64,000 bases of DNA from contig CANKYO010000007.1 of NCBI GenBank assembly GCA_947488175.1, forward strand, positions 248,001 to 312,000, read 5' to 3'. The translations under genes were made by a program, and so were the position numbers. Origin of the DNA: an uncultured Paracoccaceae bacterium. GTDB taxonomy: Bacteria; Pseudomonadota; Alphaproteobacteria; Rhodobacterales; Rhodobacteraceae. Positions 16,481-56,116 of this stretch are shown here, piece after piece. A model generated the notes under the pieces. That model saw only the letters and a program-made list of their open reading frames with translations, did not search any database and had not been told where the DNA came from. The first letter of the stretch is position 1. Every line of letters begins with the position of its first letter.

Positions 16481-16544
16481 TCGGATCTCCTTTCCCGGGA
16501 TGGGTACGATCCGATGACCGCCGCTGACAAGGAGTTACAAAAAG

Positions 16545-16868
16545 GTGACTGCCGACCCAAAGATGTATGACTGTCCAGCGCTGATCGCCATCAAGGCTAT
16601 TTCCGGAAAATGGAAAACCCGTGTCCTGTGGTTGTTGCGCGACGGCCCGCACCATTTTGGTGAACTGCGTGCGGCCCTGCCGGGTGTGTCCGCGAAAGTC
16701 CTGTCAGAACAGTTGGGCCAGTTGAAAGACGACGCGATCATTTCGTCACGGGAAGAGATGCGCGATGGGGTGCTGTATGTGCTTTATGCTTATTCAGACT
16801 ACGGCCGCGGTTTGATACCGGTACTGGATCAGCTGGGCGCATGGGGCCAAGCACATCAAAACCGGTAG
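16545..16868 (+). CDS. HxlR-family winged-helix regulator
   Basis: 107 residues, with the HxlR pattern CPALIAIKAISGKWKTRVLWLL, HFGELRAALPGVSAKVLSEQL and the wing region DGVLYVLYAYSDYGRGLIPVL. Cys9 in the YDCP motif is the conserved N-terminal cysteine used by members that sense electrophiles such as aldehydes or quinones. It starts with GTG after an AAGGAG ribosome binding site. It is divergent from the globin/ABM pair, which it probably regulates, and ends two bases from the convergent photolyase gene. Confidence 0.9.
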   Translation: MTADPKMYDCPALIAIKAISGKWKTRVLWLLRDGPHHFGELRAALPGVSAKVLSEQLGQLKDDAIISSREEMRDGVLYVLYAYSDYGRGLIPVLDQLGAWGQAHQNR

Positions 16869-16870
16869 GG

Positions 16871-41533: not shown

Positions 41534-43236
41534 CAGAAGTCTCGCGCTTCTGGCACGAACTCTTCGACTTTGAACGGTATTGTCATTGTGTAGCTTTCCG
41601 GTGCTTCATTTACTTCGATTTTGCCCCCTAGCTGGATCGCAAATGCATTGATTAACTGCGCGCCAAGACCAGTACTTTCAGCATCCGACATTCGCCCGAC
41701 GGAGTTGGCAATGGACAGCGTGCACATTCCGTCAGCCTGTGTCAGGGACACGGCCAACCACGGTTTTTCACCCCCCGCGCTGCCCAGATACTTCATTGCA
41801 TTTGTTGCCGCTTCCGACAGCAACAGGGACAGAGGAACCGCCTGATCGGGATAGAGCATGACTGCTTCAATGTCTTTTTTCACCGCAATTGAATTGCTGT
41901 CTTCCATTGCCACTTCGACGACTTTTTCGATGATCTCATTTGCCAGATTGCCGGCATTCACCAGGCCGCCGTACTGTGATTGATAAAGATCACGGTGGAT
42001 CGTGGCGAGGCTGAGGACACGATCCTGCAGCCGTAGCAGCACGGATCGGGTCTCGTCCTCTTCGGCGGTGCGAATATGCATGTTCATGATGGACGATATC
42101 AGTTGCAAGTTGTTCTTGACCCGGTGATGCACTTCTTTGATCAGCACGTTCTTCTCGCGCAACGCATTCTCCATGCCTGCTTCTTCGCGCAGGATATCAT
42201 CTGTCATTTGTGCAAAGTTGTCATAGAGGGCCTGCATTTCATTGGGCATCGACAACCGACGCCCAAATGAATCCGTCGAGCGCTTTTTGGCGAAAACATC
42301 CATGTCGGCGCGCAATCGGGTAATATGGCGCAAAACCAGCGTGTAGATCGACAGCATCGCAACCGCCATACTTGCAAACCACATCAGCGCCGGAAACAAG
42401 GCGGGCTTTAACAGCAGTGAAATTGGGCCGCCAAACCCATCATCACGCCGCCAGATGCCCAGAACGCTCGCCGGGCTGCCTTCTACAGGGACGATTGTAT
42501 AGGTGTGTAAGTCGCCACGTGAGTCTTCCGCCTGAAACACGGTGCTTACCGCCGATTTCATCTCGGCCAGTGTCCGGTCTGAAGGCAGCTGTGCCGCTGC
42601 GCCCGCAATCGTAGAGCGTGCCATGAGAATTTCGCCGTTCTGATTGAACGTGATCAGCTCCTCTAGGCCAAGCGCGGCCAAGTCTTCTGTCGTCTCCTGC
42701 AGGCCTGTATTCGGGATGGAAATCGAGATGAAGCCGGCAAAGACATCATCAATCAGATACGGCTCTGAGATCACAAACACAGATTGACCGCTCAGCGGGG
42801 CCGCCGGATTTGCTACAATCGTCGGTGCGCGGGCCGCCATAGCATCCGCAAAGAACGGATCGCCGGAAAAATCATAGCTGCGGTCAGCGGAAGAGCATGT
42901 GACGATCCCGGAAAGTGGCAGGATCCCGATGAAGCTGAAAGTCTCATCGTTTTCGACAAATTCAGACAGAACACGCTTACATCTGTCGGGGTTTCCGACG
43001 AAGTCATCGGCCACCATCGCAAAGAAGCCGGCCGCCCCGAGGGCGCGTTGGATAATCAGTTCTTCTGATTTCGCGGCCTTTTCCGTCAGGGCCAGCAGCG
43101 CCAGATCCGCATTGCGTTCAGCCTCTGCCGCGACCCTGCTGGTTTGAAAAATTGCGACCGATCCAAGCGGAAACAGGGCAAGTGTCATGAGCAGAACAAT
43201 CTGCACACGCAGGCTGTTGAGCCAGCCGGTTTTCAT
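41533..43236 (-). CDS. PhyK-like HWE/HisKA_2 sensor histidine kinase
   Basis: 567 residues. TM1 (about 12-30), a periplasmic Cache-like sensor (about 35-270), TM2 (about 275-297), a HAMP-like linker, and a HisKA_2 dimerisation domain with phospho-acceptor HHRVKNNLQLISSI (about 365-378), followed by an ATPase domain with LLLSEAATNAMKY and TGLGAQLI. It is coupled to ecfG by an ATGA overlap. In other alphaproteobacteria such kinases phosphorylate PhyR to start the general stress response. Confidence 0.92.
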   Translation of the reverse strand: MKTGWLNSLRVQIVLLMTLALFPLGSVAIFQTSRVAAEAERNADLALLALTEKAAKSEELIIQRALGAAGFFAMVADDFVGNPDRCKRVLSEFVENDETFSFIGILPLSGIVTCSSADRSYDFSGDPFFADAMAARAPTIVANPAAPLSGQSVFVISEPYLIDDVFAGFISISIPNTGLQETTEDLAALGLEELITFNQNGEILMARSTIAGAAAQLPSDRTLAEMKSAVSTVFQAEDSRGDLHTYTIVPVEGSPASVLGIWRRDDGFGGPISLLLKPALFPALMWFASMAVAMLSIYTLVLRHITRLRADMDVFAKKRSTDSFGRRLSMPNEMQALYDNFAQMTDDILREEAGMENALREKNVLIKEVHHRVKNNLQLISSIMNMHIRTAEEDETRSVLLRLQDRVLSLATIHRDLYQSQYGGLVNAGNLANEIIEKVVEVAMEDSNSIAVKKDIEAVMLYPDQAVPLSLLLSEAATNAMKYLGSAGGEKPWLAVSLTQADGMCTLSIANSVGRMSDAESTGLGAQLINAFAIQLGGKIEVNEAPESYTMTIPFKVEEFVPEARDF

Positions 43237-43790
43237 TTCGTGGCAAAACCCGAACCGCTGACAACCGCCATCGTGGCCTGATCGGTCAACTCAAGAGTGT
43301 CGTCATCCTCGAGCTTGAGAAGTTGGGTCAGTTTTGCACGCCCGCGATTAACCCTGCTTTTCATCGTTCCTGTCGCCACCCCGCACATTTCCCCTGCATC
43401 TTCGTAGGAAAATCCGGAGGCGCCGACAAGGATCAATGCTTCGCGCTGCTCGTCGGGCAATTGATTGAAGGCGACTTTGAAATCCATCATCTGCAACCGC
43501 CCGTCATGTTCGGGCTTCACTGACAATTGGCCGGACATCACGTCGTCGACATCCGCCACTTCACGGTTCAACTTGCGGCGAGAAGTGTAAAAATTGTTGC
43601 GCAAAATTGTAAAAAGCCAGGCCCGCATATTCGTCCCTGGCGTAAATTTATCGATATTTGACCATGCCTTCAGCACCGTGTCCTGCATCATATCATCTGC
43701 TGTTGCACGGTTGCGTGTGAGGCTCATCGCAAATGCACGCAGTGCTGGTAAGTGATCGACCAGCTCGTCTCTTGGATCTGGTGCAGTCAT
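43233..43790 (-). CDS. ecfG: general stress sigma factor EcfG
   Basis: 185 residues. Region 2 shows LTRNRATADDMMQDTVLKAW and region 4 LPDEQREALILVGASGFSYEDAGEMCGVATGTMKSRVNRGRA. ECF15 members pair with NepR. The start overlaps the nepR stop (ATGA), and the kinase follows by another ATGA. Boxes GGAAC-N16/17-NGTT upstream of several neighbouring genes fit its known consensus. Confidence 0.95.
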   Translation of the reverse strand: MTAPDPRDELVDHLPALRAFAMSLTRNRATADDMMQDTVLKAWSNIDKFTPGTNMRAWLFTILRNNFYTSRRKLNREVADVDDVMSGQLSVKPEHDGRLQMMDFKVAFNQLPDEQREALILVGASGFSYEDAGEMCGVATGTMKSRVNRGRAKLTQLLKLEDDDTLELTDQATMAVVSGSGFATK

Positions 43791-43951
43791 TTTTTTGTCT
43801 TGCGCTCGTCGTCCTGCGCACGCAAAACGGCAAGAAGATCGGTGATTTGGGTGGGCATTTCGTCGCCTTCCAAGTCAGAGAAGACCTGCTTGAGGTTTTC
43901 GTCTATGTACTTGGCAATCTTTGCCTTTTTGGGATCGTCTTGACCTGCCAT
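43787..43951 (-). CDS. nepR: anti-sigma factor NepR
   Basis: 54 residues. The helical core YIDENLKQVFSDL and MPTQITDLLAVLRAQ matches NepR, which holds EcfG until phosphorylated PhyR removes it. The frame opens to 43984, but the ATG at 43951 starts with the usual MAGQDDPKKAKIAKY. Short enough to be missed by gene callers. Divergent from phyR with 101 bases between. Confidence 0.92.
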   Translation of the reverse strand: MAGQDDPKKAKIAKYIDENLKQVFSDLEGDEMPTQITDLLAVLRAQDDERKTKK

Positions 43952-43994
43952 GCTCTTACCTTGCCTCGTGAACGAAAAAACCACTGCCTGATAC

Positions 43995-44019
43995 GGAACG
44001 AACCAGACGTGTCAGTGTT
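43995..44019 (+). promoter_or_regulatory. EcfG-type promoter for phyR
   Basis: GGAAC, 16 bases, then TGTT, 33 bases before the phyR ATG. Autoregulation of phyR by EcfG is known in the group. Confidence 0.72.
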
Positions 44020-44026
44020 TGGTTCC
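44001..44026 (-). promoter_or_regulatory. EcfG-type promoter for nepR-ecfG
   Basis: On the minus strand GGAAC (44022-44026), 17 bases, then GGTT (44001-44004). It overlaps the phyR promoter base for base, so the two could not be occupied together. Confidence 0.68.
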
Positions 44027-44052
44027 AAGTAAAATGAAAAAAGGTCAAAAAA

Positions 44053-44862
44053 ATGAATAACACGACTGCGGATGCAAATTTCTCGGATCTCATCGCTGAA
44101 CAATTGCCGTATCTGCGCCGCTATACAAGGGCTCTGACCGGGTCACAATCGCGTGGTGACAAATATACAGTCGCAACGCTGGAATTGATCCTCAAAGACC
44201 GGTCGCCCTTCGAAAACGATGACCCGATCAAGGTCAATCTATTCAAGTGTTTTCATGCGATCTGGACCTCTTCGGGTCAGGCGCTATCCGAACCGGAAGA
44301 TGGGCTGCGCGGTCGGGCGCAGGGCCTTCTTGCCAAGCTGACGGCAAACTCACGCGAGGCATTGCTTTTGCGGACTATCGAAGAATTCAGCCTGAACCAC
44401 ATCGCCACCATCATGCAGACCGATGTCGACGAAGTGCGACGTTTGATTTCCGCGGCCAACGAAGAACTGGCAGGCAGTATCAAGGGCAACGTCATGATTA
44501 TCGAAGACGAGCCCATTATCGCCGCCGATCTTACGGCCATTGTCGAAGGGTTGGGCCATCGGGTCACCGGCGTGGCCCGCACCCACAAAGAAGCGATCAG
44601 TTTGGGTAACGATGAGAGCGCCGATTTGATCCTCGCCGATATCCAGCTTGCCGATAACTCCTCAGGTATTGATGCGGTCAACGACTTGCTTCAAACGATG
44701 GACGTTCCGGTGATTTTCATCACCGCTTTCCCGGAACGCCTACTGACTGGTGACAGACCAGAGCCTGCATTTCTGATCTCCAAGCCATTTCAAGAGGCGC
44801 AGGTGCAGTCGGCCGTCAGCCAGGCTATGTTTTTTGCGTCAACCGCTACATTAAAAGCTTAA
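44053..44862 (+). CDS. phyR: PhyR response regulator (anti-anti-sigma)
   Basis: 269 residues. The N-terminal sigma-like domain (about 8-140, LIAEQLPYLRRYTRALTGS) mimics EcfG to bind NepR. The C-terminal receiver has VMIIEDEPII, the phospho-acceptor in LILADIQL, IFITAFPERLL (the FATGUY-type motif) and SKPFQ. Activation by the adjacent kinase releases EcfG. Divergent from nepR. Confidence 0.96.
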   Translation: MNNTTADANFSDLIAEQLPYLRRYTRALTGSQSRGDKYTVATLELILKDRSPFENDDPIKVNLFKCFHAIWTSSGQALSEPEDGLRGRAQGLLAKLTANSREALLLRTIEEFSLNHIATIMQTDVDEVRRLISAANEELAGSIKGNVMIIEDEPIIAADLTAIVEGLGHRVTGVARTHKEAISLGNDESADLILADIQLADNSSGIDAVNDLLQTMDVPVIFITAFPERLLTGDRPEPAFLISKPFQEAQVQSAVSQAMFFASTATLKA

Positions 44863-44870
44863 CTGCTCAC

Positions 44871-44901
44871 AAAAGGGCCCGCAGCCAGATCGCTGCGGGC
44901 C
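44871..44901. terminator. terminator between phyR and dps
   Basis: A 9-bp stem GGCCCGCAG/CTGCGGGCC. The T-run is good on the minus strand (CTTTTG) and weak on the plus strand, so it mainly serves the dps gene. Confidence 0.75.
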
Positions 44902-44909
44902 TTAGTTGT

Positions 44910-45407
44910 TCATTGTGCGGTGATGGCTTTCAGCATCCAGGCGGCCTGTTCGTGAAATGCCGACCGGGCCGTCGCCATATCCTCGGTCACAGGATCGTTA
45001 TGCTCTTCTGCAATCTCGATCAACGCATGTAGCCGGTGCGCCACACGTTCGTGATCCTGCGCCAGCTGTTCACACATTTCGCCCGCCGACATCGTGGTTG
45101 TCGCGTCTTCGATGACGGACTTAGCGATGATATCTTTCATGGACATCGGCGCCATCTGCCCAATAGCACGGATCCGTTCCGCGATCGTATCCGCGGCGGC
45201 GAACATGTCTTCATATTGCGTTTCGGTCAGCTGGTGGATCGAAAAGAATAATGGTCCTTCGACATTCCAGTGAATGGCATGGGTCTTGAACGTCAACTGG
45301 TAAGTGTCGGCCAGCACATCCGCCAACGCCTCTGCCACCGTCTCCGGTGCGCGCACGCCAGAGGAAATTTCCTGCTCATTCGGCACAACATTAAGTGCAT
45401 TTGTCAT
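44910..45407 (-). CDS. dps: Dps-family DNA-protection ferritin
   Basis: 165 residues. The ferroxidase signature HAIHWNVEGPLFFSIHQLTE and YEDMFAAADTIAERIRAIG is complete. Dps dodecamers oxidise and store iron and protect DNA in starvation. The ATG follows AAGAAGGAGA. It lies downstream of the DUF1328 gene, whose EcfG-type promoter probably drives both. Confidence 0.94.
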   Translation of the reverse strand: MTNALNVVPNEQEISSGVRAPETVAEALADVLADTYQLTFKTHAIHWNVEGPLFFSIHQLTETQYEDMFAAADTIAERIRAIGQMAPMSMKDIIAKSVIEDATTTMSAGEMCEQLAQDHERVAHRLHALIEIAEEHNDPVTEDMATARSAFHEQAAWMLKAITAQ

Positions 45408-45445
45408 CGTATTCTCCTTCTTGGTGAGTGGTGATCTTCTGTTCT

Positions 45446-45607
45446 TCATCCGCGCACGGCTCGCACGATCAGCGTCAGGACAAACAATACGATGAAGACG
45501 AAAAACAGGATCTGGGCGATGCCGACCGAGGCCGATGCCACCCCACCGAAACCAAAGACTGCGGCGACCAGCGCCACGATAAAAAATAAGGCTGCATAGT
45601 ACAGCAT
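45446..45607 (-). CDS. DUF1328 small membrane protein
   Basis: 53 residues: [22 protein letters not shown], then [21 protein letters not shown]. This two-helix pattern is DUF1328 (YtjA-like), common among stress-induced genes. The frame is longer, but the ATG at 45607 follows AAAAGGAGC. Preceded by an EcfG-type box. Confidence 0.92.
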
Positions 45608-45664
45608 TGGACTGCTCCTTTTCAGTTTGTTTGACGAGGCATCAGCCACGCTATCTGGCATTTC

Positions 45665-45690
45665 AACCGCTGGTAGCAGCAATCCGTTCC
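45665..45690 (-). promoter_or_regulatory. EcfG-type promoter for DUF1328-dps
   Basis: On the minus strand GGAAC, 17 bases, then GGTT, the same box and spacing as upstream of nepR. Confidence 0.68.
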
Positions 45691-45709
45691 ATTTTTTTCC
45701 AGCACGGTT

Positions 45710-45734
45710 GGAACGGATTTTACGGATCGGTGTT
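45710..45734 (+). promoter_or_regulatory. EcfG-type promoter for elaB-like gene
   Basis: GGAAC, 16 bases, then TGTT, identical in box and spacing to the phyR promoter; 34 bases before the ATG at 45769. Confidence 0.7.
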
Positions 45735-45768
45735 GGGTATGCAGACACGATTTGAAAAGGAGACCAAG

Positions 45769-46098
45769 ATGGCCACCAAGGCAGTAAATGGACGTTCAAA
45801 AGATGTAACAACAGCCGATCTGACAGATCAGATTGAAGTTCTGCGCGACGACATCAGTTCGCTGACCCAAACGATCGCAGATATCGGCAAGGCCAAGGGT
45901 GCCGAAGCAACCGACGCTGCAAAGGCCAAAGCAGCGGAGTTGCGCGATCGCGCATCCGCAACGGCAGAGGCTGCACGCGGTCAGGCGGCACAACTGCAAG
46001 GTCAGGCGAACGACTTTATTCGCGATCAGCCGGCCACGGCATTGGGCATTGCAGCCGGTATCGGCTTTCTTGTCGGCTATATGGGCCGCCGGAACTAA
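45769..46098 (+). CDS. ElaB/YqjD-like (DUF883) membrane-tail protein
   Basis: 109 residues: a long alanine-rich helix (about 20-85, [16 protein letters not shown] and [23 protein letters not shown]), then a C-terminal membrane helix ending [11 protein letters not shown], the family hallmark. E. coli homologues are stationary-phase proteins that bind ribosomes at the inner membrane. The ATG follows AAAAGGAGA. Next to a holin-like gene, the same pairing as yqjD-yqjE. Confidence 0.9.
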
Positions 46099-46101
46099 TC
46101 C

Positions 46102-46443
46102 ATGTTTGGGATTGAAAAGAAAGTGACACGCACCGCTAAGCGGGCAGGCCTCTATACCGGAGGCCTGCTACTGTGCAGTGTTGGTGTTGCTTTCATGACG
46201 GCAGCAGCATGGATCGCACTGGCTACAGCTTTGGACGCGCAGATTGCAGCCATTGTCATCGGCTGCGCGTATTTGGGTGTTGGTCTGGTCATCTTTGGGG
46301 TGGCGGCTTCATCTCCTTCGCAGGAGCAGCCAAAAGCTCCACATGTGGAACAGCCAAAAGCACCAAGTGACGCACCGCCTATTGTGCAAGCTTTCATGTA
46401 CGGCTTACAGGCTGGGGCGGAGGCGAACCAAACGCGTCATTAG
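46102..46443 (+). CDS. holin-like (DUF1469/YqjE-type) membrane protein
   Basis: 113 residues, two membrane helices (about 18-42 and 47-70) with a Pro/Lys-rich tail carrying two copies of EQPKAP. Resembles the phage-holin superfamily III proteins that accompany ElaB/YqjD. It starts three bases after the ElaB-like stop. Its end overlaps the convergent pseudo-receiver gene by 50 bases. Confidence 0.78.
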   Translation: MFGIEKKVTRTAKRAGLYTGGLLLCSVGVAFMTAAAWIALATALDAQIAAIVIGCAYLGVGLVIFGVAASSPSQEQPKAPHVEQPKAPSDAPPIVQAFMYGLQAGAEANQTRH

Positions 46444-46765
46444 ATATCGCATCCAGCACCATATCGCTGGTGAAGGGGTAATCAACAAATCGTGCGGGCG
46501 CTCCTATGTCGTGGGCGCGCCCGATGAAAATGACTTTTCCCCCATTGTTTGCGATTGTCGCTAACGGCACCGCTTGCCGGTTGTTGTAATGCATGCCAGC
46601 GATCAGGATGCAGACTGATCCTCTCACGCTGCCAGCAACCACGACAGCATCGTCGACTGTCGGTAGAACATTTATGCTTGTCCCCGGAAAACTGGTGTCT
46701 AGCAAGCCTACCAGATCCATGCTGATCACGGGGTCGGTCTCGACGACGAAAAACGTCCGGTCCAT
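46394..46765 (-). CDS. degenerate (pseudo-)receiver domain protein
   Basis: 123 residues with receiver-domain layout: acidic start FFVVETDPVISMDL, a central strand VCILIAGMHY where the phospho-acceptor Asp should be, VIFIGRA in place of the Thr/Ser motif, and DYPFTSDMV in place of KPF. The acceptor Asp, Ser/Thr and Lys are all missing, so it is unlikely to be phosphorylated. It belongs to the stress island by position. The frame is open upstream; the ATG at 46765 follows AGCGGGG and starts the fold. Confidence 0.75.
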   Translation of the reverse strand: MDRTFFVVETDPVISMDLVGLLDTSFPGTSINVLPTVDDAVVVAGSVRGSVCILIAGMHYNNRQAVPLATIANNGGKVIFIGRAHDIGAPARFVDYPFTSDMVLDAISNDAFGSPPPQPVSRT

Positions 46766-46850
46766 TGCGATACCCCGCTGACCACCGTGACAATGAATAG
46801 TAGCCAAACGCGGGTGCTGCATTAATCTATGACATAGGAAGGATAAGAAA

Positions 46851-47579
46851 GTGGCTACGAAGTGCATTAATTGCCCCCTGCGCCGTCGGGACATCTTTGA
46901 AAAAATGTCAGCTGACGAAGTGCGGTTCATGGAGCGGTTCAAGGTGGGTGAACTCGTTGTTGACGCTGGCACGCCCATCCTGATGGAGGGGTCCAACAGC
47001 CCCCAGCTTTACACAGCGCTCTATGGTATGGGATTGCGGTACAAGCTGCTGCCCAATGGCAAACGGCAGGTCGTCGGTTTGATATTTCCCGGCGATTTCA
47101 TCGGGCTTCAGGCTAGTGTGATGGGCGAGATGGGGCATTCTGTTGAGGCCACAACACGAATGACGCTCTGCGTTTTTGACCGGTCGGCATTGTGGTCGTT
47201 CTTCAAGGAAAGTCCCACACGCGCCTACTCACTGACATGGCTTGCAGCGGTTGAGGAGCATTTTTTGGGGGATGCGCTCGCTACGCTGGGGCAGCGCAAT
47301 GCGTTGCAATCGGTCGCGTGGGCACTTGCACGTATCATCATCCGCGCTCGGGCGCTCGGGGTGGAACACGAGGGCGAGATGAAGTTTCCTTATAAGCAAC
47401 AGGATCTTGCAGACGCTTTGGGCCTGTCGCTCGTCCATACCAACAAGACTTTGGCGCGTCTGAAGGACAGACAGTTGGCGATTTGGTCTGATGGCATCTT
47501 GCGTGTCAACAACCTCGAGGAATTAGCCGAAGTGGGATTGTTGTCAGACCTTGATGCCGCGACCCGCCCCATTCTTTGA
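46851..47579 (+). CDS. Crp/Fnr-family transcription regulator
   Basis: 242 residues. A cyclic-nucleotide-binding-like domain (about 15-135, with GKRQVVGLIFPGDFIGLQ), a dimer helix, and a winged helix with FPYKQQDLADALGLSLVHTNKTLARLK (about 182-208). An N-terminal CINCPLRR gives two cysteines (C5, C8); a full FNR iron-sulfur set (four Cys) is not present. GTG start after AGGAAGGATA. It lies just upstream of the three-gene operon, which it may control. Confidence 0.9.
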   Translation: MATKCINCPLRRRDIFEKMSADEVRFMERFKVGELVVDAGTPILMEGSNSPQLYTALYGMGLRYKLLPNGKRQVVGLIFPGDFIGLQASVMGEMGHSVEATTRMTLCVFDRSALWSFFKESPTRAYSLTWLAAVEEHFLGDALATLGQRNALQSVAWALARIIIRARALGVEHEGEMKFPYKQQDLADALGLSLVHTNKTLARLKDRQLAIWSDGILRVNNLEELAEVGLLSDLDAATRPIL

Positions 47580-47614: not shown

Positions 47615-47666
47615 TTGACACACGGCTGAAAACCAGCGCCATATTGAAAGTGATTAGAAAAATCAC
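47615..47666 (+). promoter_or_regulatory. possible promoter and operator of the three-gene operon
   Basis: A TTGACA box at 47615-47620, and CATATT at 47640-47645 (19-base spacing, long). A perfect inverted repeat GTGAT-N7-ATCAC lies at 47650-47666, just before the ribosome binding site. It is related to CRP half-sites but with wider spacing, and could be the site of the Crp/Fnr protein encoded upstream. Confidence 0.45.
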
Positions 47667-47681
47667 ATTGGGCGGAGAGTG

Positions 47682-49508
47682 ATGCCAAAAAAAATTCCGA
47701 ATGTCGCGCAGGTTTTAATCGATTATTTGAAGCTGGAAGGTGTCACCCACGTGTTCGGCGTGCCCGGTGGCGGCCTGATCGAAATGCTAGATGAATTCTA
47801 TCACCAGCGCGGCACGATAGACTACGTTGTCTGCCGGCAGGAAACAGGCGCGGCCTATATGGCTGACGGCTATCATCGCGCAACTGGCAAGCTGGGCGTG
47901 GTCATGGTGACCACGGGTCCCGGTGCGACAAACGCGGTCACTGGCGTGATGAATGCCGAGGCTGGTGGGTCCGCCCTACTCGCGCTGACGGGCGAGATCG
48001 CCGAGGCCTATGCTGGCATGGGTTATCTGCAGGAAGGCATCGACGGTAAGCTTGACGTTAACCAGATTTTCAGCGGCGCCTGTGCGTCCTCAACTATTCT
48101 GTCATCCGGCATCAGCGCGCAGCGTCTGATCGAGGCCGGATTGCGCACTGCCATGGATGTACCACGTCATGCGGCACATTTGTCATTGCCCGTCGATGTC
48201 ACCGGGCAACCGGCGACCAAGCTACCCCAGAAAGGCAAAGCCCCGGAACCGGTGACAATGCCGGACAGCCCATCCAGATACCGCAGCGCCCCATCTGAGG
48301 CGCCTTTGCGCAAGGTCGAACGCACGCTGGAAATTCTGGCAGCCGCCAAGCGGCCACTGATCATGCTTGGCAATGGCTGCCGCGAGGCGCTGCGTAACAA
48401 GGCAACGCTGGATGCCTTTACCCGCTTTGTGGAGGCACGGGGCATTCCGGTCATTACAACGGCGGACGGCAAGGGCATCTTTCCCGAAGATCATCCGCTT
48501 TCGCTGCGGATGTTCGGGATCGCGAACTGCATGTGGCCCTATTATTGGATGAACCAGAAAGACCCTGCATATGACGCGCTTGTCGTGATCGGATCGGGCC
48601 TTGGTGAACTGGCAACAAATAAATGGAACCCGATGCTGATACCCAAAGGCCCGCTGGTCCAACTTGACGCCAGCCAGCGTATGATCGCCCGCGATTTCCC
48701 GGTCGATCTTGGGATTGTGGGCGAGGCTGGTGCCTTTATCAACGCGTTGGCGAAGCTATCAGGCGAAGCCCCACCGCCGCCGGATGAGGTGTCCGAGCGC
48801 AAGGCCAAGGTGGCCCAAATCAAGGCGGATCATTCGCCGTTCTTCTCGGACGAGGAATATAATTCGACGGCCGCCCTGGTGCAGCCCGCGGCCCTGTGCC
48901 GTGTCATGCAAGAGGTGCTGCCAGCCGACAACACGATCATGATGCTGGATGCGGGCAACTGCGTAGGTTGGGCCGCCCATTACATGGTGTCCAGGCCGGG
49001 CTTTGAGGTGCATTCGGCCCTGGATATGGGTCCGATGGGTTTTGCATCTGGTGCAGTCATCGGGGCCAAGATCGCCCGACCGGATGCGACCTGCGTGGCG
49101 TTCACAGGCGACGGGGCGTTCATGATGCAAGGCGCCGAGATTTCGACAGCGCAGCGCAATGGTGTCGGGGCGATTTGGGTCGTCCTGCATGATGACGACT
49201 TGTCGATGGTCAGTCAGGGAATGGAGCATTTCAAGGGCGGCGATATTGAAGAATGGAGAGACATGTTCTCGCTCGGCACGCCGGACCTCGCTGGCTATGC
49301 AACCGGGTTGGGTGCCGATGCCTATACCGTCAAAAGCCCGAAAGAATTCAAGGCCGCGCTCAAGAAAGCTGTCAAAAAGGCGGATGCCGACAAGAAGCCG
49401 CAGGTGATCGTCGCCCAGATCAATCGGGATGCAGAGCCACCCTATTACAACCCGCTTTACGTGCCGACCAAAGAAGAAGCGCGCAGAATGACCACAAGAG
49501 GAGCGTGA
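47682..49508 (+). CDS. ThDP-dependent acetolactate-synthase-like enzyme
   Basis: 608 residues with three domains: Pyr (about 5-170, catalytic Glu E54 in CRQETGAAY), central (about 200-340) and PP (about 380-560). The Mg/diphosphate motif begins GDG at 476-478, but the usual NN 26-27 residues later is H503-D504 (LHDDDLS). This does not match acetolactate synthase proper, and the typical regulatory subunit is not nearby. It probably decarboxylates a 2-oxo acid and transfers the acyl unit. An ATG follows GGAGAG; the GTG at 47679 is an alternative. First gene of a tight trio. Confidence 0.85.
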   Translation: MPKKIPNVAQVLIDYLKLEGVTHVFGVPGGGLIEMLDEFYHQRGTIDYVVCRQETGAAYMADGYHRATGKLGVVMVTTGPGATNAVTGVMNAEAGGSALLALTGEIAEAYAGMGYLQEGIDGKLDVNQIFSGACASSTILSSGISAQRLIEAGLRTAMDVPRHAAHLSLPVDVTGQPATKLPQKGKAPEPVTMPDSPSRYRSAPSEAPLRKVERTLEILAAAKRPLIMLGNGCREALRNKATLDAFTRFVEARGIPVITTADGKGIFPEDHPLSLRMFGIANCMWPYYWMNQKDPAYDALVVIGSGLGELATNKWNPMLIPKGPLVQLDASQRMIARDFPVDLGIVGEAGAFINALAKLSGEAPPPPDEVSERKAKVAQIKADHSPFFSDEEYNSTAALVQPAALCRVMQEVLPADNTIMMLDAGNCVGWAAHYMVSRPGFEVHSALDMGPMGFASGAVIGAKIARPDATCVAFTGDGAFMMQGAEISTAQRNGVGAIWVVLHDDDLSMVSQGMEHFKGGDIEEWRDMFSLGTPDLAGYATGLGADAYTVKSPKEFKAALKKAVKKADADKKPQVIVAQINRDAEPPYYNPLYVPTKEEARRMTTRGA

Positions 49509-49509
49509 G

Positions 49510-51159
49510 ATGTCTGATATTCTTGATTTCGCCATTGTCGGCGGCGGCGCATCCGGCGTCTATACCGCGTGGCGACTTGCCCGTGCGACAGAGCGTGAAT
49601 TGAGGAAGATCCGCGCCCAGATTGGTGGTGAGGGCCCGCTGAATATCGCGATTTTCGAAGGGTCTGACCGGATCGGCGGGCGTCTTTTGTCAGCATCCCC
49701 GTCCAGCATGCCAGATACGCCAATGGAAATTGGCGGCATGCGGTTTCTCAACAATCAGCCACTGGTCCGCGATCTGGTGCACAAGCTGGGCATCGCCCAT
49801 CATGAGCAGGTCGTTGATGCGCCGGATAACTATGCCTGGCTGCGGCGCAGACATTTCATTCAGTCCAATCTGAACAAGCCGGAGGCAAAGCTTCCCTATA
49901 ATCTGACCGACGTAGAAAGAGCTGTGGTCAAATCAGCGGCCACGCAATCACCGGCAGAGTTGATTTTTTGGGCTGTTTATCAAGAGTTTCCTGAAATCAA
50001 CGGCATGAAACCGGATGAGTTGGCGGCGTTTCTGCGCAAGGCCAAGGTCGGGGGGCGCGATCTTTATGATATTGGTTTCTGGAACCTGCTGTCGCGCCAT
50101 CTGAGCCATGAAGGCCGCCAATTGGCGATCACCACGATCGGCTATGATGTATTGGGGGCCAATGCCAATGCCGTTGATATCATCGCAGAGAATTTCGACT
50201 TCACACCCGATACAAAATACTACCTGTTCGATGACGGGTTCGAGGCGATGCTGTGGGAATTGGCCGACCAGTTCCAGAAGTCAGGGCACGTCCATATGGA
50301 ACGCGTGCTGGACAGTTTTGACGATTTTGAGATGGACGACGGCAAGACCGCGATGCGTCTGCGATTTGAAGACGGTGAAGATGTAGAGGCCCGCGCCATT
50401 GTGCTGGCGATGCCGCAGGCCGCAATCCAGGGACTGCGCCGGACGGGCCCCGTGCTTGATCCTGAACGGGCACCCGAGGTCCAACAGATGCTCCATGCCG
50501 TCGAAGGCATCCCGCTCTACAAGCTGTTCCTGATTTATGAAACGCCATGGTGGAAAGAACAGTGCGGGCTGACAGAGGGCCGGTCACTGACCGATATTCC
50601 GGTGCGCCAGTGCTATTACTGGTCCACCAATGACGACAGCTATTCCGCAATCATGGCCTATAACGATCAGGCCAGTTCGAGTTTCTGGGGTGGGTATCAG
50701 ATCGGGCCTTTGGGGCCGCGGGATGCCGCACAGAGCGGGTTCGGGGCCAGGCCGTTTGAAAGCCGGCATGATGAATGGATCACGCCCAAGGACCATTTGG
50801 GCGAACGACGGCGCAAAAATTGGGAGGACCACAAGGCGCCACACGAAATGGTGGTCGAAATGCATCGTCAGTTGATGGAGATGCATAGGGTCGCCAGTGC
50901 GCCGTTCCCGATTGATGCGGCCTTCATGGACTGGATGAATGCGCCTTATGGCGGTGCCGTGCATTTCTGGAACCCGGGCTACAAATCCTGGGAGGTGGTC
51001 GAAAAGATGCCACAGCCGGTTGACGGTGTGAATGCATTCATTGTTGGCGAAGCCTATTCGACCGTGCAAACCTGGGTCGAGGGGGCGTTCCAGACCTCCG
51101 AAATCGCGTTGGGTAAGCTTGGTATGGACAGCCCGTGCTGGTTGCAAGAACAGGGATAG
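49510..51159 (+). CDS. flavin-dependent amine oxidase family protein
   Basis: 549 residues. The FAD dinucleotide motif FAIVGGGASGVYTAWRL (8-24), then DRIGGRLLS, MEIGGMRFL, and a C-terminal FAD contact FIVGEAYSTVQTWVEGAFQTSE. This is the monoamine/L-amino-acid oxidase fold; no signal peptide. It would oxidise an amine or amino acid to an imine/oxo acid. One base separates it from the ThDP gene and three from the KAS III-like gene, so the three are certainly co-transcribed. Substrate unknown. Confidence 0.88.
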   Translation: MSDILDFAIVGGGASGVYTAWRLARATERELRKIRAQIGGEGPLNIAIFEGSDRIGGRLLSASPSSMPDTPMEIGGMRFLNNQPLVRDLVHKLGIAHHEQVVDAPDNYAWLRRRHFIQSNLNKPEAKLPYNLTDVERAVVKSAATQSPAELIFWAVYQEFPEINGMKPDELAAFLRKAKVGGRDLYDIGFWNLLSRHLSHEGRQLAITTIGYDVLGANANAVDIIAENFDFTPDTKYYLFDDGFEAMLWELADQFQKSGHVHMERVLDSFDDFEMDDGKTAMRLRFEDGEDVEARAIVLAMPQAAIQGLRRTGPVLDPERAPEVQQMLHAVEGIPLYKLFLIYETPWWKEQCGLTEGRSLTDIPVRQCYYWSTNDDSYSAIMAYNDQASSSFWGGYQIGPLGPRDAAQSGFGARPFESRHDEWITPKDHLGERRRKNWEDHKAPHEMVVEMHRQLMEMHRVASAPFPIDAAFMDWMNAPYGGAVHFWNPGYKSWEVVEKMPQPVDGVNAFIVGEAYSTVQTWVEGAFQTSEIALGKLGMDSPCWLQEQG

Positions 51160-51162
51160 TAA

Positions 51163-52191
51163 ATGAGTAGATTTGTACCGCGTATCCTGGGAACGGGTCA
51201 CACTGTTCCGGGGAAAATCAGGTTGAATGATGATCCGATTTTTGACTGGCTGAAGAAAAATGACCCGGCAGGATCGGAACTGTTTGCCGGCTATGAAAAA
51301 CGGCACGTGCTGTCTGATGGCGAAAAGATGATCGACATCATGCTGCCGGCGGCAAAGCTTGCCCTTGATAATGCAGGGATACGCCCTGATCAGATTGATC
51401 TGTTGCTGGGTGACGGGTCAGTCGGCGACTATCGCACGCCGAATACGATCAGCGATTTGCACAGGCTCCTTGATCTGCCATCCCGGGCCTGGCCCTTGCC
51501 ACTGCAAAACAGTTTTTCACAGTTCAATGCCAGCATGATGATGGCGGATGCGCTGATCCGTGCTGGGCGGGCGACATACATTCTGGTCGCATTGGGTGAC
51601 AACTGGACCCGCTATGTTGACTACAAGACGCCGCAATCCATTTCAGCCGCTGATGGTGCTGCCGCCTGTGTGATCGGGCCATCTGACAATGGATCGAAAT
51701 GGGAGTTCGTCGACCAGATCACCATCACCGATACGTCCTATTATGGCTCCATGTATATGGCGTCGGATGTGATCACCGAAGGTTTTGCAGATGCACGCTC
51801 CCAATTCAGCCGGGCCGAGGCGGCAGAGTATTCACATGCCTATTTTCACATCACGCAAAAAGGGATCGAAGGGTTTACGGAGTTTGGCGTCAACAAATCG
51901 CCCGAGGCCGTGACCGCATTGCTCAAACGCAATCGGCTTGAGGCAAAGGATGTCTGCCTTTTGACCCATCAGGCCAGCACCAAACTGATGGAACACTGGA
52001 CGAGTGTCATCAAACCGGGCTGTTACGTCCAGACGATCAAGCAATATGCCAATATCGTGCAATGCAGTGTCCTGTTCAATTTGTCCTGGGGCATGCAAAA
52101 CGCGCCTGAGTTCACGCAGGATTGGGTCGTTATCCTTTGCCTTGGCCCGGATATGCATGCCAGCGCCATGCTGATGCGGCGCAACGGTTGA
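51163..52191 (+). CDS. KAS III-like protein without the active-site Cys
   Basis: 342 residues of the thiolase fold, ketoacyl-ACP synthase III (FabH) type. The C-terminal His H269 (THQAS) and Asn N297 (YANIVQ) are kept, but the nucleophile loop reads QNSFSQFNAS, so the catalytic Cys is replaced by Phe (F118). It therefore cannot make the usual acyl-thioester and may act as an acyltransferase, hydrolase or binding partner. ATG just after the amine oxidase stop with AGGGATAG as weak ribosome binding site. Convergent with the cyclase-like gene, eight bases away. Confidence 0.85.
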   Translation: MSRFVPRILGTGHTVPGKIRLNDDPIFDWLKKNDPAGSELFAGYEKRHVLSDGEKMIDIMLPAAKLALDNAGIRPDQIDLLLGDGSVGDYRTPNTISDLHRLLDLPSRAWPLPLQNSFSQFNASMMMADALIRAGRATYILVALGDNWTRYVDYKTPQSISAADGAAACVIGPSDNGSKWEFVDQITITDTSYYGSMYMASDVITEGFADARSQFSRAEAAEYSHAYFHITQKGIEGFTEFGVNKSPEAVTALLKRNRLEAKDVCLLTHQASTKLMEHWTSVIKPGCYVQTIKQYANIVQCSVLFNLSWGMQNAPEFTQDWVVILCLGPDMHASAMLMRRNG

Positions 52192-52198
52192 AGGGGGG

Positions 52199-55100
52199 TT
52201 AGTTCAACCCGCGCTCTGCAAACCGTTGGGCCACGGCCAGCGCACCCCAGTTTTTATAGGCCTGAATGGCGTCATTGACCCGACCGGTGTCGGGCTGCAG
52301 TCGCGCCGCGTATTCAAAGGCGAGGGCACGATCCTGCAACCAATGCTGTGTATCGCCGGCCCGGGCAAGTGTGGCGATGCCGTCAGCGGCACTGATATCA
52401 CCCTCAACGCCAGCCCAGACCAGATTGGCCATCTCGGCCTTCGCCCCAAAGTTTTGCGGGTGAATAGCGCTCCAGTCGGTCAGCTGTGATAGCTCAGCTT
52501 CAATTGCGCCGCACTGTGCCTCCAAAACGGCAGGATCGGCCAATACTTGGCCCAAACGCGCCAGCACGGCATGCAGAACAAGGTCAAATTCGATCATCTG
52601 ACCGGCGATCGCTGGGCGGACGGGCAGGACGCGCTCGTACCAGTCCAGCGCACCGATCCAATCGCCAGCATGTCGATGCAAGCGCGCGCGCGTAGCGAGG
52701 TAGAAACCGATCTGATTGGCAAACTCGGTTTCGGTGACCCAGCCGATGTCTTTGTCCTCATTGAGTTTTTCGTCAGACAATGACAGCAAATCATGTGTTT
52801 CGCCGCGCAGCGCGCGTGCAAACTGCATTTCCAGATGGACATGCACCAGCGCGTTTCGATGCAATGGGTGCTGCAAGGCTTGCGCACCCTGCGAGATAAC
52901 ATCAGCCAAAGGATAGCCCAATGCCGCCTTCAGGATGACGCCCCCGGCAATGTTGTAGCTGGCATATTGCAGGTCGTTATCGGCCAACGCGCGTTCGACC
53001 GCGATACGGTTGGTTTCTACGCTTTCCTGCAGCGGATCACGCCAATGACCATGAAACCACATATCAATAAAGGCCGCGGCAGGCAAAGCGTTCCCTTCCG
53101 TTGCCGCATCCAGATCAAGGGCTGCGCGCGACCAGGCCGCACCCGCCGCCCTATCGCCGGTCAACAGAGACTGCACGATGGAATACATCGAAAATGCGTG
53201 CGGCGGGCCTGCGACGTTCTCCATCACAAGGCGCATCGCCGCCGAAGATGCCCATGCAAAAACCGGGAACTGGTTGGATTGAAACGCGAACGGGGCCGTG
53301 GACAATATCGTTTGAAACTTCAGCAACAAGTCAGCTGGCGGTTGCCGCATTCTGGAAAGAAGCTCGGTCGGATGTCTGCCTTCGGTCAGTTCCGCAACGA
53401 CGGCCATGTTGCGCTGCGTCGCCTCGTTCAGGGCTTCTGGACCCTCAGGTACATCCACGCCAGCAACACGCATGGCGCGCAACCCAACCTGCACCGCATC
53501 GACGGCAAAACCCTGGCTGAAAAGGCGCAATGCTTCTTCGACAAGACAAGAAACGGCGCGCGGGCGCAGCCCTGCTTCCATCCAGTGGTGGGCAAGTTCC
53601 AGTAATCGGCTTGCGCGGTCTTCCCCGGAGTGGCGTTCGATCCATTCTGCGGCCTTTGCGTGCAACCGGCGGCTTTGCGCCCGGGGCAGCTGACTATGGG
53701 CCACCTCGCGAACGATGCCGTGAGAGAAGGCAAAGCCGGGACTGTTCAGTGCGTTTTGGACACGCAGGAACCCTTGTGTCACCTGGTGGTCCAATTGCTG
53801 CGACATGTCTTTGGCAGAACGTTCCAACGGATCCAGCGCACACACCAGTTTTGTCGGAAAGCTGAGACCGGCGACGGACGCGACCCTGAGCGACAGTTGA
53901 TCGCTCGGTTCCAACTTGTCGAGCCTTTGCAGGACCATCCCATGAACGGTGTCAGGCAATGCCGCCGTGGCCAACGCATCTGCGCGGGCCAGCGATGCCT
54001 GACCATTGCTGATGACGACAGCATCAGCCGCCATCAGGTTCCGTAATACCTCAGCGGTGTAGAATGGGTGACACTCAGTCTGCACACTGATCTGCTCAAG
54101 AAGGCCTTGATCAACGCTGTCGCATCCAAGGTTCCGAACAATCAATTGCAGCAGACCGTCTTGTGACAGGGGGCCGAGACTCAGATGGGTAAAACCGGCA
54201 TCATCGGCAAACGCGGACCAACTGCCGGTCTGCTTTGGCTGTGCCAGAATGACAATCATCAAATCAGGTGCAGATTTCGCCAACCGCGCGAGCACGTGAT
54301 GCGTCTCTGTATCCAGCCATTGCGCGTCATCAACACACAGGCAGGTCGGTTGTCCTGCAAATGCATCAAACAGCAAATCCACCACGAAGCCCTGAATGTG
54401 TTCGGCGCGCGCCTGACCCGTCAACGTGGCCGTAAATTCTGTTTCCTCAAGCCCGCTGGGGAACACAGCGTTGAGAAACGGTGCGGCCGGGCGCAGCCGT
54501 TCTGGCAGTTTGGCCATAATTGCCTTCTGACGCGCCTCTGCGGACATCAGGGGCAGAACATCCAGGCTTTCCATCACCAAACGCCGCAATGCGCTGAACG
54601 GAGCGTCCTGTTCAATGGCGGAGGCCGCTTCGAACTTGAACTGACCGCCGCTCAGAGTGACGATATCCCTCAGTTGCAGGGCAAGGCTGGTCTTGCCCAA
54701 CCCGGACTCACCTTCAATCACAACATGACGGATGTCGTCTCCGGCGCGTTGGTTCCAGCAATCCAGCAGTTTGGCAATTTCGCGATCTCGTCCTGAAATC
54801 TCCTCTGAGGCTCTTGCATATTGCTGATCAAGTTGCGGTGCCCAGGCGGGCGCTTCTCGCGATGCACCCTTGAACAGCAGCATCAACGGCTCTGCCCCGT
54901 AGGACATCATGTTCCGCGTAGCCTGCATCGTCGTCTCGTCGACAAGCATTCCGCTTTGTGTGGTGGTCGCCAATCGCGTGGACCGGATCAAGGCATCGCC
55001 CAAGACCAGATCACAGCGGCGATCCGCGTTGCCGACGATGCAACAGAGCATTCGCCCCGTTGCAACCCCCACACTGGATCGCAACCCCCGTTGCGACAAC

Positions 55101-56116
55101 GCCTCAAGGATCTCGCGACCCGATAGAACGCTGCGCAGGGGATCGTCGGAATGCGCATCAGGCGGTGTGCCAAACGTGATCAGGACCGACACGCCTTTTT
55201 CATCCACAGTCACCTCTGCCACATACCCGTCGCGGCGATGCACGATGTCCTGAATACTCTGCACGACCTCGTTCAGCCGGTTGGCCCCACCAACCGCACT
55301 TTGATCAAAACCATGCAAGACAACGCTGACCGAGGTCACCGGACGCAGCTCAGCCAGATATTTCAGGCCAACTGTTTCAATCCAACCCGCAGCAAATCGC
55401 GGCATGCGTGCGAGGGCCGCGTTCCACGCGGCGGGCGGCGGGACTGTAAGTGATGTCTTGCCCAGCCGCCTTGAGGCTTGAGGACGCAGGAGCCTTCGGG
55501 CCCCGTAACGGCCCATCGGTGCAGAGACCGCCTCCAGAGCACAAAATGTGGCAGCTTCCGCCGTCAGAACAACCTCGTTGGGTGCCTTGATATCTGCAAT
55601 GCGCTCCAGTTCCTTGAGTGCCGATCCCACTGAGGTCGAGAGCCACCGGCCATGCCGACCGCCAAGCTCCACCGTCTGGAACTCTCCACACGAAACATGG
55701 TGATTGAGATTGAACCGCGCGTCACCATTTGCCCGCGACCGGACAAGCGCGCAGGCCGTCCCGATTGCGCTTTCGACGGCGGCGGCCATCCCGCCGGTTT
55801 CGACCGGCCACACCGAAAGCAGCCCGTCCCCCACAAAAGTAACCGGTTCGCCGCCATGGGACAGGATGGTCTCGATCAGTTTGTCGTAATGCGTATCGAT
55901 TTCACGATGCAGGCGGTCAACGCCTTCGGCGCCAGCTGACAGAAACTCTGCTGTGTGGCGGGAAAAGCCCGAGATATCGCACCATAGCAGCGCGACCTGC
56001 CGACGCGGCAAAGCTCCGCATGTATTGCCATCCGGGGCAGCCGCCAGCGCCCTGCGCAATTCCGGCGAAAGAAAGCTCAGCGCCTGTAGAAAGCTCTGTT
56101 CGCGTGATTCAGGCAT
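52199..56116 (-). CDS. soluble-adenylyl-cyclase-shaped cyclase/NTPase/TPR-like protein
   Basis: About 1,305 residues. Two class III nucleotide-cyclase domains: C1 (about 40-200, VALLWCDISGFSRHT and FVGDGLLSVW) and C2 (about 255-440, RSSVGVATGRMLCCIVG and LVLGDALIRSTRLA). Then a P-loop NTPase with Walker A GESGLGKTS and Walker B LCVDDAQWLD, and a long helical C-terminus. This is the ADCY10 order. Both catalytic Asp of C1 are present, but the Lys is Thr and the C2 transition-state Asn is Ile, so activity is doubtful. The frame opens to 56188; ATG 56116 is chosen because of an upstream GAGAG, and 56161 is the alternative. Confidence 0.85.
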   Translation of the reverse strand: MPESREQSFLQALSFLSPELRRALAAAPDGNTCGALPRRQVALLWCDISGFSRHTAEFLSAGAEGVDRLHREIDTHYDKLIETILSHGGEPVTFVGDGLLSVWPVETGGMAAAVESAIGTACALVRSRANGDARFNLNHHVSCGEFQTVELGGRHGRWLSTSVGSALKELERIADIKAPNEVVLTAEAATFCALEAVSAPMGRYGARRLLRPQASRRLGKTSLTVPPPAAWNAALARMPRFAAGWIETVGLKYLAELRPVTSVSVVLHGFDQSAVGGANRLNEVVQSIQDIVHRRDGYVAEVTVDEKGVSVLITFGTPPDAHSDDPLRSVLSGREILEALSQRGLRSSVGVATGRMLCCIVGNADRRCDLVLGDALIRSTRLATTTQSGMLVDETTMQATRNMMSYGAEPLMLLFKGASREAPAWAPQLDQQYARASEEISGRDREIAKLLDCWNQRAGDDIRHVVIEGESGLGKTSLALQLRDIVTLSGGQFKFEAASAIEQDAPFSALRRLVMESLDVLPLMSAEARQKAIMAKLPERLRPAAPFLNAVFPSGLEETEFTATLTGQARAEHIQGFVVDLLFDAFAGQPTCLCVDDAQWLDTETHHVLARLAKSAPDLMIVILAQPKQTGSWSAFADDAGFTHLSLGPLSQDGLLQLIVRNLGCDSVDQGLLEQISVQTECHPFYTAEVLRNLMAADAVVISNGQASLARADALATAALPDTVHGMVLQRLDKLEPSDQLSLRVASVAGLSFPTKLVCALDPLERSAKDMSQQLDHQVTQGFLRVQNALNSPGFAFSHGIVREVAHSQLPRAQSRRLHAKAAEWIERHSGEDRASRLLELAHHWMEAGLRPRAVSCLVEEALRLFSQGFAVDAVQVGLRAMRVAGVDVPEGPEALNEATQRNMAVVAELTEGRHPTELLSRMRQPPADLLLKFQTILSTAPFAFQSNQFPVFAWASSAAMRLVMENVAGPPHAFSMYSIVQSLLTGDRAAGAAWSRAALDLDAATEGNALPAAAFIDMWFHGHWRDPLQESVETNRIAVERALADNDLQYASYNIAGGVILKAALGYPLADVISQGAQALQHPLHRNALVHVHLEMQFARALRGETHDLLSLSDEKLNEDKDIGWVTETEFANQIGFYLATRARLHRHAGDWIGALDWYERVLPVRPAIAGQMIEFDLVLHAVLARLGQVLADPAVLEAQCGAIEAELSQLTDWSAIHPQNFGAKAEMANLVWAGVEGDISAADGIATLARAGDTQHWLQDRALAFEYAARLQPDTGRVNDAIQAYKNWGALAVAQRFAERGLN

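Follow-up and report, generated by a model that had tools for sequence, protein, structure and literature searches.

What do three enzymes of small-molecule chemistry and a very large cyclase-like protein do together in one bacterial locus? The question is raised by a 64,000-nucleotide stretch of DNA from an uncultured Paracoccaceae bacterium (assembly GCA_947488175.1, contig CANKYO010000007.1, positions 248,001 to 312,000 of the forward strand), the whole of which is referred to here as the window. It encodes a trio consisting of an enzyme dependent on thiamine diphosphate (ThDP), an amine oxidase and a relative of β-ketoacyl-acyl carrier protein (ACP) synthase III (KAS III), next to a protein that combines cyclase domains, a nucleoside triphosphatase (NTPase) and a tetratricopeptide repeat (TPR) end, called here the sensor. 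An initial annotation had joined these four genes with a Crp/Fnr regulator in a module for a small-molecule pathway with a nucleotide-linked switch. Comparison with other bacteria points instead to a cassette of four genes. It has the look of a stand-alone system, not described before, that both produces a small molecule and responds to it. The reading favoured here, at a probability of about 0.55, is that the cassette builds a small molecule out of an amino acid and is coupled to a dedicated, STAND-like switch within the cell. The four genes are as follows:

47682..49508, plus strand: ThDP-dependent carboligase, acetolactate-synthase-like (Pfam TPP_enzyme N, M and C; closest solved relative in the PDB, BbmA, 8x3x)
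49510..51159, plus strand: flavin adenine dinucleotide (FAD) amine oxidase (Pfam Amino_oxidase; PDB 8jhe, an L-amino acid oxidase, E=3e-81)
51163..52191, plus strand: KAS III-fold enzyme with F118 instead of the catalytic Cys and with His269 kept (NCBIfam fabH, AlphaFold, Foldseek)
52199..56116, minus strand: sensor with two class III cyclase halves, an AAA_16 NTPase and a C-terminal TPR superhelix (Pfam AAA_16, 2.2e-15)

The ThDP gene is taken to start at ATG 47682, which agrees with the starts of its relatives, rather than at GTG 47679 as in the list of open reading frames (ORFs). The sensor has 1,305 residues counted from ATG 56116, in a frame that is open to TTG 56188. The initial annotation described three enzyme genes spaced by 1 and 3 bases, which the coordinates bear out, and a facing cyclase/NTPase protein of about 1,300 residues; this gene does converge on the KAS gene, across a gap of 7 bases rather than the 8 given. 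Pfam finds three TPP domains, Amino_oxidase, ACP_syn_III and AAA_16, in agreement with the families first named. No NCBIfam match listed for the four proteins attains its cut-off (for the ThDP enzyme, among the 25 of 54 matches listed).

Whether the gene set is real was judged from 29 loci with a KAS gene: two plasmid records, 26 loci from one scan of GTDB genome contigs and one locus, L106, from a further genome. Because the scan requires exact peptide patterns, it under-samples distant relatives. An oxidase gene lies within about 6 kb of the KAS gene in all 29 loci and a ThDP enzyme of at least 42% identity is present in 28. The loci come from five major groups of bacteria, and the trio is linked in 28 of them, in Alphaproteobacteria, Betaproteobacteria, Bacteroidota and Acidobacteriota; the 29 loci were found in Rhodobacteraceae, Rhizobium, Bradyrhizobium, Sabulicella, Betaproteobacteria, Bacteroidota, Acidobacteriota and one Solirubrobacterales metagenome-assembled genome (MAG). 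In 19 loci the ThDP, oxidase and KAS genes follow one another in this order on one strand, with a sensor of the same subfamily adjoining, which is convergent in 15, downstream and co-directional in three (L012, L014 and L017) and upstream in one (L021). Some of these loci are close kin (L006–L009; L020 and L031), so that the independent lineages number fewer than 19. When neighbouring ORFs of at least 90 residues were clustered across 28 loci, every cluster other than the four genes occurred in at most four loci, and only four small clusters crossed lineages.

The core set of four genes is not a product of chance. Unrelated neighbours of the trio in most genomes had been named in advance as the outcome that would speak against a module; linkage was found in 28 of the 29 loci. 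Co-occurrence of all five genes was found in part, in that the trio is linked in 28 loci and accompanied by the sensor subfamily in 19, while the Crp/Fnr gene is in none of the 28 other loci. With Crp/Fnr excluded, the module comprises four genes.

The sensor is tied to the trio by its C-terminal TPR end. Among 18 sensor homologues or sensor-like neighbours, Pfam finds AAA_16 in all 18, a cyclase in 11, a protein kinase in three and GAF with SpoIIE in one. The proteins of Granulicella (L012) and of a member of the Terriglobia (L014) are kinase–AAA_16 proteins and that of a betaproteobacterium (L017) is a SAM-cyclase–AAA_16 protein; all three share their TPR end with the tandem-cyclase copies. 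The TPR end thus tracks the trio while the output domain changes between cyclase and Ser/Thr kinase.

Surveys of whole genomes gave a similar picture. In 385 sampled alphaproteobacterial genomes the KAS gene is present in two, the window's own genome and another of its genus, and the TPR end matches in six, of which two score above 560 bits, both with the KAS gene, and four score at most 180.5 bits and lack it. In 395 Bacteroidota genomes the KAS gene is present in two, one of them the chosen centre, and the TPR end matches in 20; the same two score above 570 bits and the other 18 at most 213.5. The 22 lower-scoring genomes of both samples (at most 213.5 bits) all lack KAS, while two of the four high scorers were certain to be sampled, being the window's own genome and the chosen centre, and the other two, G014 and G549, are not rows of the TPR profile. 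Among 247 Acidobacteriota genomes, searched for the TPR end only, there were 13 matches: the centre, which carries the trio, at 591 bits, and 12 others at up to 196.7. None of five neighbourhoods around weak TPR matches has the oxidase or the KAS gene, and one of them (L107) lies near a distant ThDP enzyme (27–28%). Other AAA_16 proteins of carrier genomes, one in the first search and nine in a second that covered 11 genomes or records (one without a match), align only as far as position 488 of the 900-residue query, covering its NTPase half; the TPR end begins near position 451.

Within the window's genus, four of 36 genomes carry the KAS gene; none of 24 other genomes of the class does. ThDP relatives at E<=1e-80 were found in two of 72,556 plasmid records, and these same two carry KAS relatives of about 41% identity, the other 38 of the 40 rows listed being at most 28% identical, as well as the top two oxidase matches. 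Carriage on viral contigs was rejected, 288 pattern matches having included no relative. The best explanation is a cassette that spreads horizontally between distant bacteria, its four genes moving together.

Shared history was assessed with 18 of the 19 same-sensor loci and the window (L008, a close relative of L007, was left out). Tree distances within the trio correlate at 0.92, 0.92 and 0.88, and those of the trio with the sensor TPR end at 0.65–0.70; none of 2,000 label permutations reaches any of the former or is as high as the latter, although permutation does not remove the shared descent of closely related loci. What emerges is a cassette of four genes whose histories correlate and which stay together through rearrangement, the sensor end being specific and its output exchangeable.

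In domain order the sensor resembles the soluble adenylyl cyclases (sAC), in which cyclase, AAA_16 and TPR parts follow one another; the same order, with cyclase or kinase, is found in the TOMM kinase/cyclase family (TIGR03903). Identification with the latter was rejected, as the sensor scores 137.6 bits against a TIGR03903 cut-off of 705.75, and its TPR end forms a subfamily of its own, associated with the trio. The Walker A motif reads GESGLGKT, and the TPR-like end (52202–53548) is predicted to be all-helical with a predicted local distance difference test (pLDDT) score of 94.0. Class III cyclases bind metal through two Asp residues, and an Asn and an Arg act in the transition state. The two metal-binding Asp residues are present in the first cyclase half of the window's protein and in 14 of 14 relatives that cover both sites.

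Like the limit of label permutation given above, several observations weigh against a coupled cassette of four genes. In the second cyclase half, Ile replaces the catalytic Asn in all six Rhodobacteraceae copies (the window and L006–L010), with the Arg kept; the Asn is kept in 10 of 10 other relatives that cover the site, one of which, L021, has Lys for the Arg. This substitution makes cyclase activity uncertain and a cyclic-nucleotide output doubtful in this species, where the cyclase may be inactive or altered, though retained. The earlier description of the protein as sAC-shaped thus holds for its architecture, with activity in question. For the modelled TPR end, no fold match reaches significance (best E=9.4e-3); hits to Rap pheromone receptors, likewise insignificant (E 0.015–0.034), were not used as evidence. 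The TPR subfamily also sits within a wider family of sensors that occurs without the trio. In the trees, L017 groups with L012 and L014 for the ThDP enzyme and oxidase and with L012 for KAS, a grouping not seen for the TPR end. Together, the distance correlations and trees show joint inheritance with some exchange, which by itself does not show function.

Further points of the same kind come from loci that break the pattern. In L030, on a short Solirubrobacterales MAG contig (8430–10946), only oxidase and KAS genes are present, with no ThDP gene, and the KAS match changes frame near 10,570–10,600, which may reflect decay or an assembly error. In the eight Aquabacterium-type loci (L022–L029) the trio is rearranged, with the oxidase gene divergent from the ThDP gene, and tblastn does not find the specific TPR end. 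Two of these (L026 and L028) carry a generic SAM-cyclase–AAA_16 protein instead, L025 and L029 retain the truncated end of a protein from the same cluster, and the L027 sequence breaks off; L022–L024 are without an AAA_16 sensor, and in L022 a PAS histidine kinase precedes KAS. Either another sensor is used in these loci or the tie to the sensor is looser than in the other 19. Finally, Flammeovirga (L004) has a different AAA_16 protein, of kinase–AAA_16–GAF–SpoIIE type, with no match to the specific TPR end.

What the trio makes can be approached through its active sites. The closest solved protein to the ThDP enzyme is BbmA (8x3x, E=1.6e-86), followed among different proteins by an acetolactate synthase at 3.9e-48; CsmA (8x3z, 8.7e-48) is no closer than the acetolactate synthases. 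No paper on BbmA or CsmA was found in the open-access literature, and the name BbmA supports no functional inference. The best NCBIfam score of the enzyme, among the 25 of 54 matches listed, is 261.3 bits against a cut-off of 538.35. ThDP enzymes use a catalytic Glu and a GDG motif that binds metal and ThDP; in the 28 relatives Glu55, G477 and D478 are invariant and G479 is kept in 27, so that the GDG motif is complete in 27 of 28.

The oxidase is homologous over its full length to HTAncLAAO2 (8jhe), its closest solved relative. Its R78 corresponds to R67 of that enzyme, which binds the substrate carboxylate, and its K338 to K322, which serves the reaction with O2; both are present in 29 of 29 relatives. 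The mapping rests on a two-residue numbering offset worked out by hand on a phmmer alignment. In the FAD motif, G11, G13 and G16 are kept in all 28 relatives covered and E50 in 29 of 29. According to the available part of its description, HTAncLAAO2 prefers Phe, Leu, Met and Ile (PMC10517122). The two enzymes share the carboxylate-binding Arg and the O2-reactive Lys and differ in the pocket, where Trp220 is replaced by Glu in the window (hand-counted), so that the substrate is probably one other than these four. Oxidation of an L-amino acid and ThDP carboligation are both strongly suggested by these residues.

In the third enzyme, the column of the FabH catalytic Cys (C112) holds Phe in 14, Tyr in 10 and Glu in five of the 29 loci, with F118 in the window, and the designation 'Cys-less' given at first sight is borne out. 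The active-site His is kept in 27 of 28 proteins covered (His269 in the window), the Asn column holds Asn in 20 and Asp in eight of 28, and an N-terminal DPIFD stretch has D24, P25, F27 and D28 invariant in all 29. The window's protein matches NCBIfam fabH (E=1e-22, 80.6 bits, cut-off 292.1), far under the cut-offs of all nine NCBIfam models matched, and the fabH model is matched by all 21 KAS-like proteins scanned. Its AlphaFold model (pLDDT 87.4, predicted template modelling score 0.88) has a thiolase/KAS III fold, and Foldseek places it with PqsD (7.9e-27, about 20% identity) and FabH (9.7e-27). The family thus shares its fold and active-site His with FabH and PqsD, and differs from them in lacking the catalytic Cys throughout and in its own invariant N-terminal motif. 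Two other, distant KAS III genes in the window's own genome are 27 and 29% identical. Ketosynthases without Cys can still decarboxylate β-keto acids, and the KAS III-fold protein may carry out a finishing step that involves no acyl-enzyme.

A precedent for this order of enzymes exists in carbazole biosynthesis, where, in the accessible portion of the source, an amino acid is first deaminated to a 2-oxo acid, and a ThDP enzyme (NzsH/CqsB3) and a KAS III-like enzyme (NzsJ/CqsB1) then act in series, the latter on an α-hydroxy-β-keto acid (PMC7466098). The route from amino acid to 2-oxo acid to ThDP enzyme to KAS III-like enzyme would be common to both systems. As far as that portion goes, the Nzs/Cqs pathway differs in its aminotransferase feed, in the use of acyl-ACP at the KAS III-like step and in the CqsB2 cyclase that follows; the cassette has an oxidase in place of the aminotransferase, no catalytic Cys and a conserved sensor nearby. 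An oxidase and a ThDP enzyme have also been combined in vitro to make indole acyloins (PMC9822442), and such acyloins lead to carbazoles and to the antimicrobial sattazolins. No fifth biosynthetic gene conserved across lineages was found among ORFs of at least 90 residues, no profile search for CqsB2 or ACP having been made. The open-access literature, in which subscription papers are mostly outside coverage, yielded no description of the gene set, of a Cys-less KAS III or of the sensor architecture in this context.

Taken together, the three enzymes probably form a small, coupled ketone from an amino acid. In the proposed scheme, the oxidase would use O2 to convert an L-amino acid to the imino acid and 2-oxo acid, a step strongly suggested by its conserved residues. 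The 2-oxo acid would next enter ThDP carboligation and leave as an acyloin-type molecule finished by the KAS III-fold protein. This third step is the weakest: with no Cys for an acyl-enzyme, and with His and Asn or Asp kept, the protein would most simply carry out a stereocontrolled decarboxylation to the acyloin, or alternatively a ring closure. Decarboxylation is the simplest proposal because carboligation of two 2-oxo acids by a ThDP enzyme is expected to give a β-keto acid. In a fourth step, the TPR end of the AAA_16 protein would recognise either the product or an enzyme-bound state. The NTPase would pass this on to whichever output domain is carried, be it a tandem cyclase, a SAM-cyclase or a Ser/Thr kinase. 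The association of sensor and trio is seen in the loci themselves; from the sequences we infer the product, its sensing and the direction of signalling. The pathway first suggested, from amino acid to oxo acid to acyloin or acyl product, fits the conserved active-site residues and the carbazole precedent, its product being a proposal; as for the nucleotide-linked switch, the Crp/Fnr part was wrong and the cyclase part is uncertain, given the missing catalytic Asn and the protein kinases of L012 and L014.

Should a coupled synthase and switch be confirmed, bacterial small-molecule biology would gain a compact, transferable synthase-plus-receptor system, and one branch of the AAA_16/TPR proteins, of which to our knowledge few have a known ligand, would have a testable job. 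The cassette would also provide a natural family of nucleophile-free KAS III-fold proteins, conserved across phyla, in which catalysis without an acyl-enzyme could be studied.

A narrower and only tentative extension is that the cassette is a stand-alone signalling device, in which the trio makes an acyloin-like second messenger or pheromone out of an amino acid, with the help of a KAS III fold that has lost its nucleophile, and the NTPase/TPR switch is its receptor. The receptor would then have its output domain, cyclase or Ser/Thr kinase, exchanged as the cassette moves between phyla. It is about equally conceivable, and likewise somewhat doubtful, that the cassette serves regulated specialised metabolism with no signal role: the trio would make an antimicrobial, a pigment precursor or another compound, and the sensor would read an unrelated cue and activate the trio. 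The same linkage data fit this alternative, STAND-type activators often switch genes on in response to cellular cues, and related enzyme logic gives the indole acyloins from which carbazoles and sattazolins derive. Against it, the 25 of 26 Pfam families listed for the 18 sensor-type proteins include no DNA-binding domain, no gene for an exporter or for tailoring recurs across lineages, and the exchange of cyclase for kinase is easier to explain if it is the input to the TPR end that is conserved.

The surroundings of the cassette in this genome suggest two less probable readings, both involving the block to its left:

41533..47579: general-stress locus with an HWE/HisKA_2 histidine kinase, an EcfG-like sigma factor, PhyR, a ferritin-like (Dps-type) protein, small genes and Crp/Fnr

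Adjacency to this locus, together with the O2-reactive Lys of all 29 oxidases, would suit a role in stress or redox control, in which the oxidase removes amino acids and makes hydrogen peroxide, the other two enzymes dispose of the oxo acid and the sensor reports redox or nutrient state. Such a role is improbable. By tblastn neither PhyR nor Crp/Fnr is found in the 28 other trio loci, and in G014, which has both, 310 kb separate the trio from the Crp/PhyR block; a ThDP and KAS III pair seems needless for the disposal of an oxo acid, and a degradative role leaves the Cys-less KAS III of all 29 loci unexplained.

Still less can be said for the five-gene module first proposed, in which cyclic AMP from the cyclase would act through Crp/Fnr on the trio, and which was rejected. 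The Crp/Fnr gene (46851–47579) does end about 100 bases upstream of the trio, outside the interval 47615–56116 assigned to the module. Of 36 genomes of the genus, 17 have its ortholog, and 14 of these lack the trio; trio and ortholog coincide only in G000, G014 and G026, in the last on different contigs, and G023 has the trio without Crp/Fnr. In the trio-less G032, G011 and G002, as in G014 and the window, the gene ends a block of PhyR, EcfG and histidine kinase genes, and in G017, also trio-less, it lies about 7 kb from PhyR. The general-stress locus is conserved in trio-less relatives, the Crp/Fnr gene seems to belong to that locus regularly, whether or not the trio is present, and it is a bystander to the cassette. 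Chance proximity of the four genes can be dismissed, as linkage persists across phyla in several gene orders with correlated protein distances.

To the right of the cassette lies an RpiR-FGase-TRAP block, which was likewise considered as part of the module and rejected, G017 carrying it without the trio (65–99.5% protein identity, on a different contig from the G017 stress locus). The two flanks occur together in none of six regions compared within the genus, five centred on Crp and one on RpiR. By these comparisons the cassette is flanked in this genome by two unrelated blocks, both resident; the regions compared contained no intact empty site.

Upstream of the trio and of the sensor, nothing was found beyond one candidate for a separate trio promoter:

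47615..47620, plus strand: TTGACA, −35-like, downstream of the Crp/Fnr gene (a consensus match only, which by itself does not show activity)

Five of six aligned Rhodobacteraceae upstream regions share GGATTGACA, which is absent in L010. The inverted repeat GTGAT-N7-ATCAC, which lies a short way ahead of the ThDP start, is not kept in relatives; its spacing also differs from that of a CRP site.

Filing of the cassette under anti-phage defence was rejected. PADLOC has no match for the trio and, for the sensor, only a 21.1-bit match to PycC in the first cyclase half; the kinase-type proteins of L012 and L004 match PD-T4-6, mad6 and other models through their kinase domain.

Several loci have additional genes of related types. 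One cross-lineage cluster, in L024 and L031, is antisense to KAS, and another consists of histidine-kinase-type ORFs directly beside KAS (L022, 7616–9955; L031, 8732–9910), with the cyclase sensor on the far side of the one in L031. Upstream of KAS, L022–L024 encode a further, distant ThDP enzyme; in L023, the most fully scanned of its type (eight ORFs), it follows an FAD_binding_2 flavoprotein, amid GGDEF genes and type VI secretion parts (TssG and a ClpV-like AAA protein). L004 has, besides the amine oxidase gene adjoining KAS, a second one adjoining the ThDP gene (16225–17790). On a Nostoc conjugative plasmid (L112, 7992–17367) a related oxidase (33%) is followed by a transposase and then by a 5,982-base AAA ATPase gene with weak similarity to the NTPase and TPR parts of the sensor, with no ThDP or KAS match, and on a Photobacterium plasmid (L114, 8047–11605) an oxidase relative (34%) lies about 1.3 kb from a distant, partial ThDP match (22–31%).

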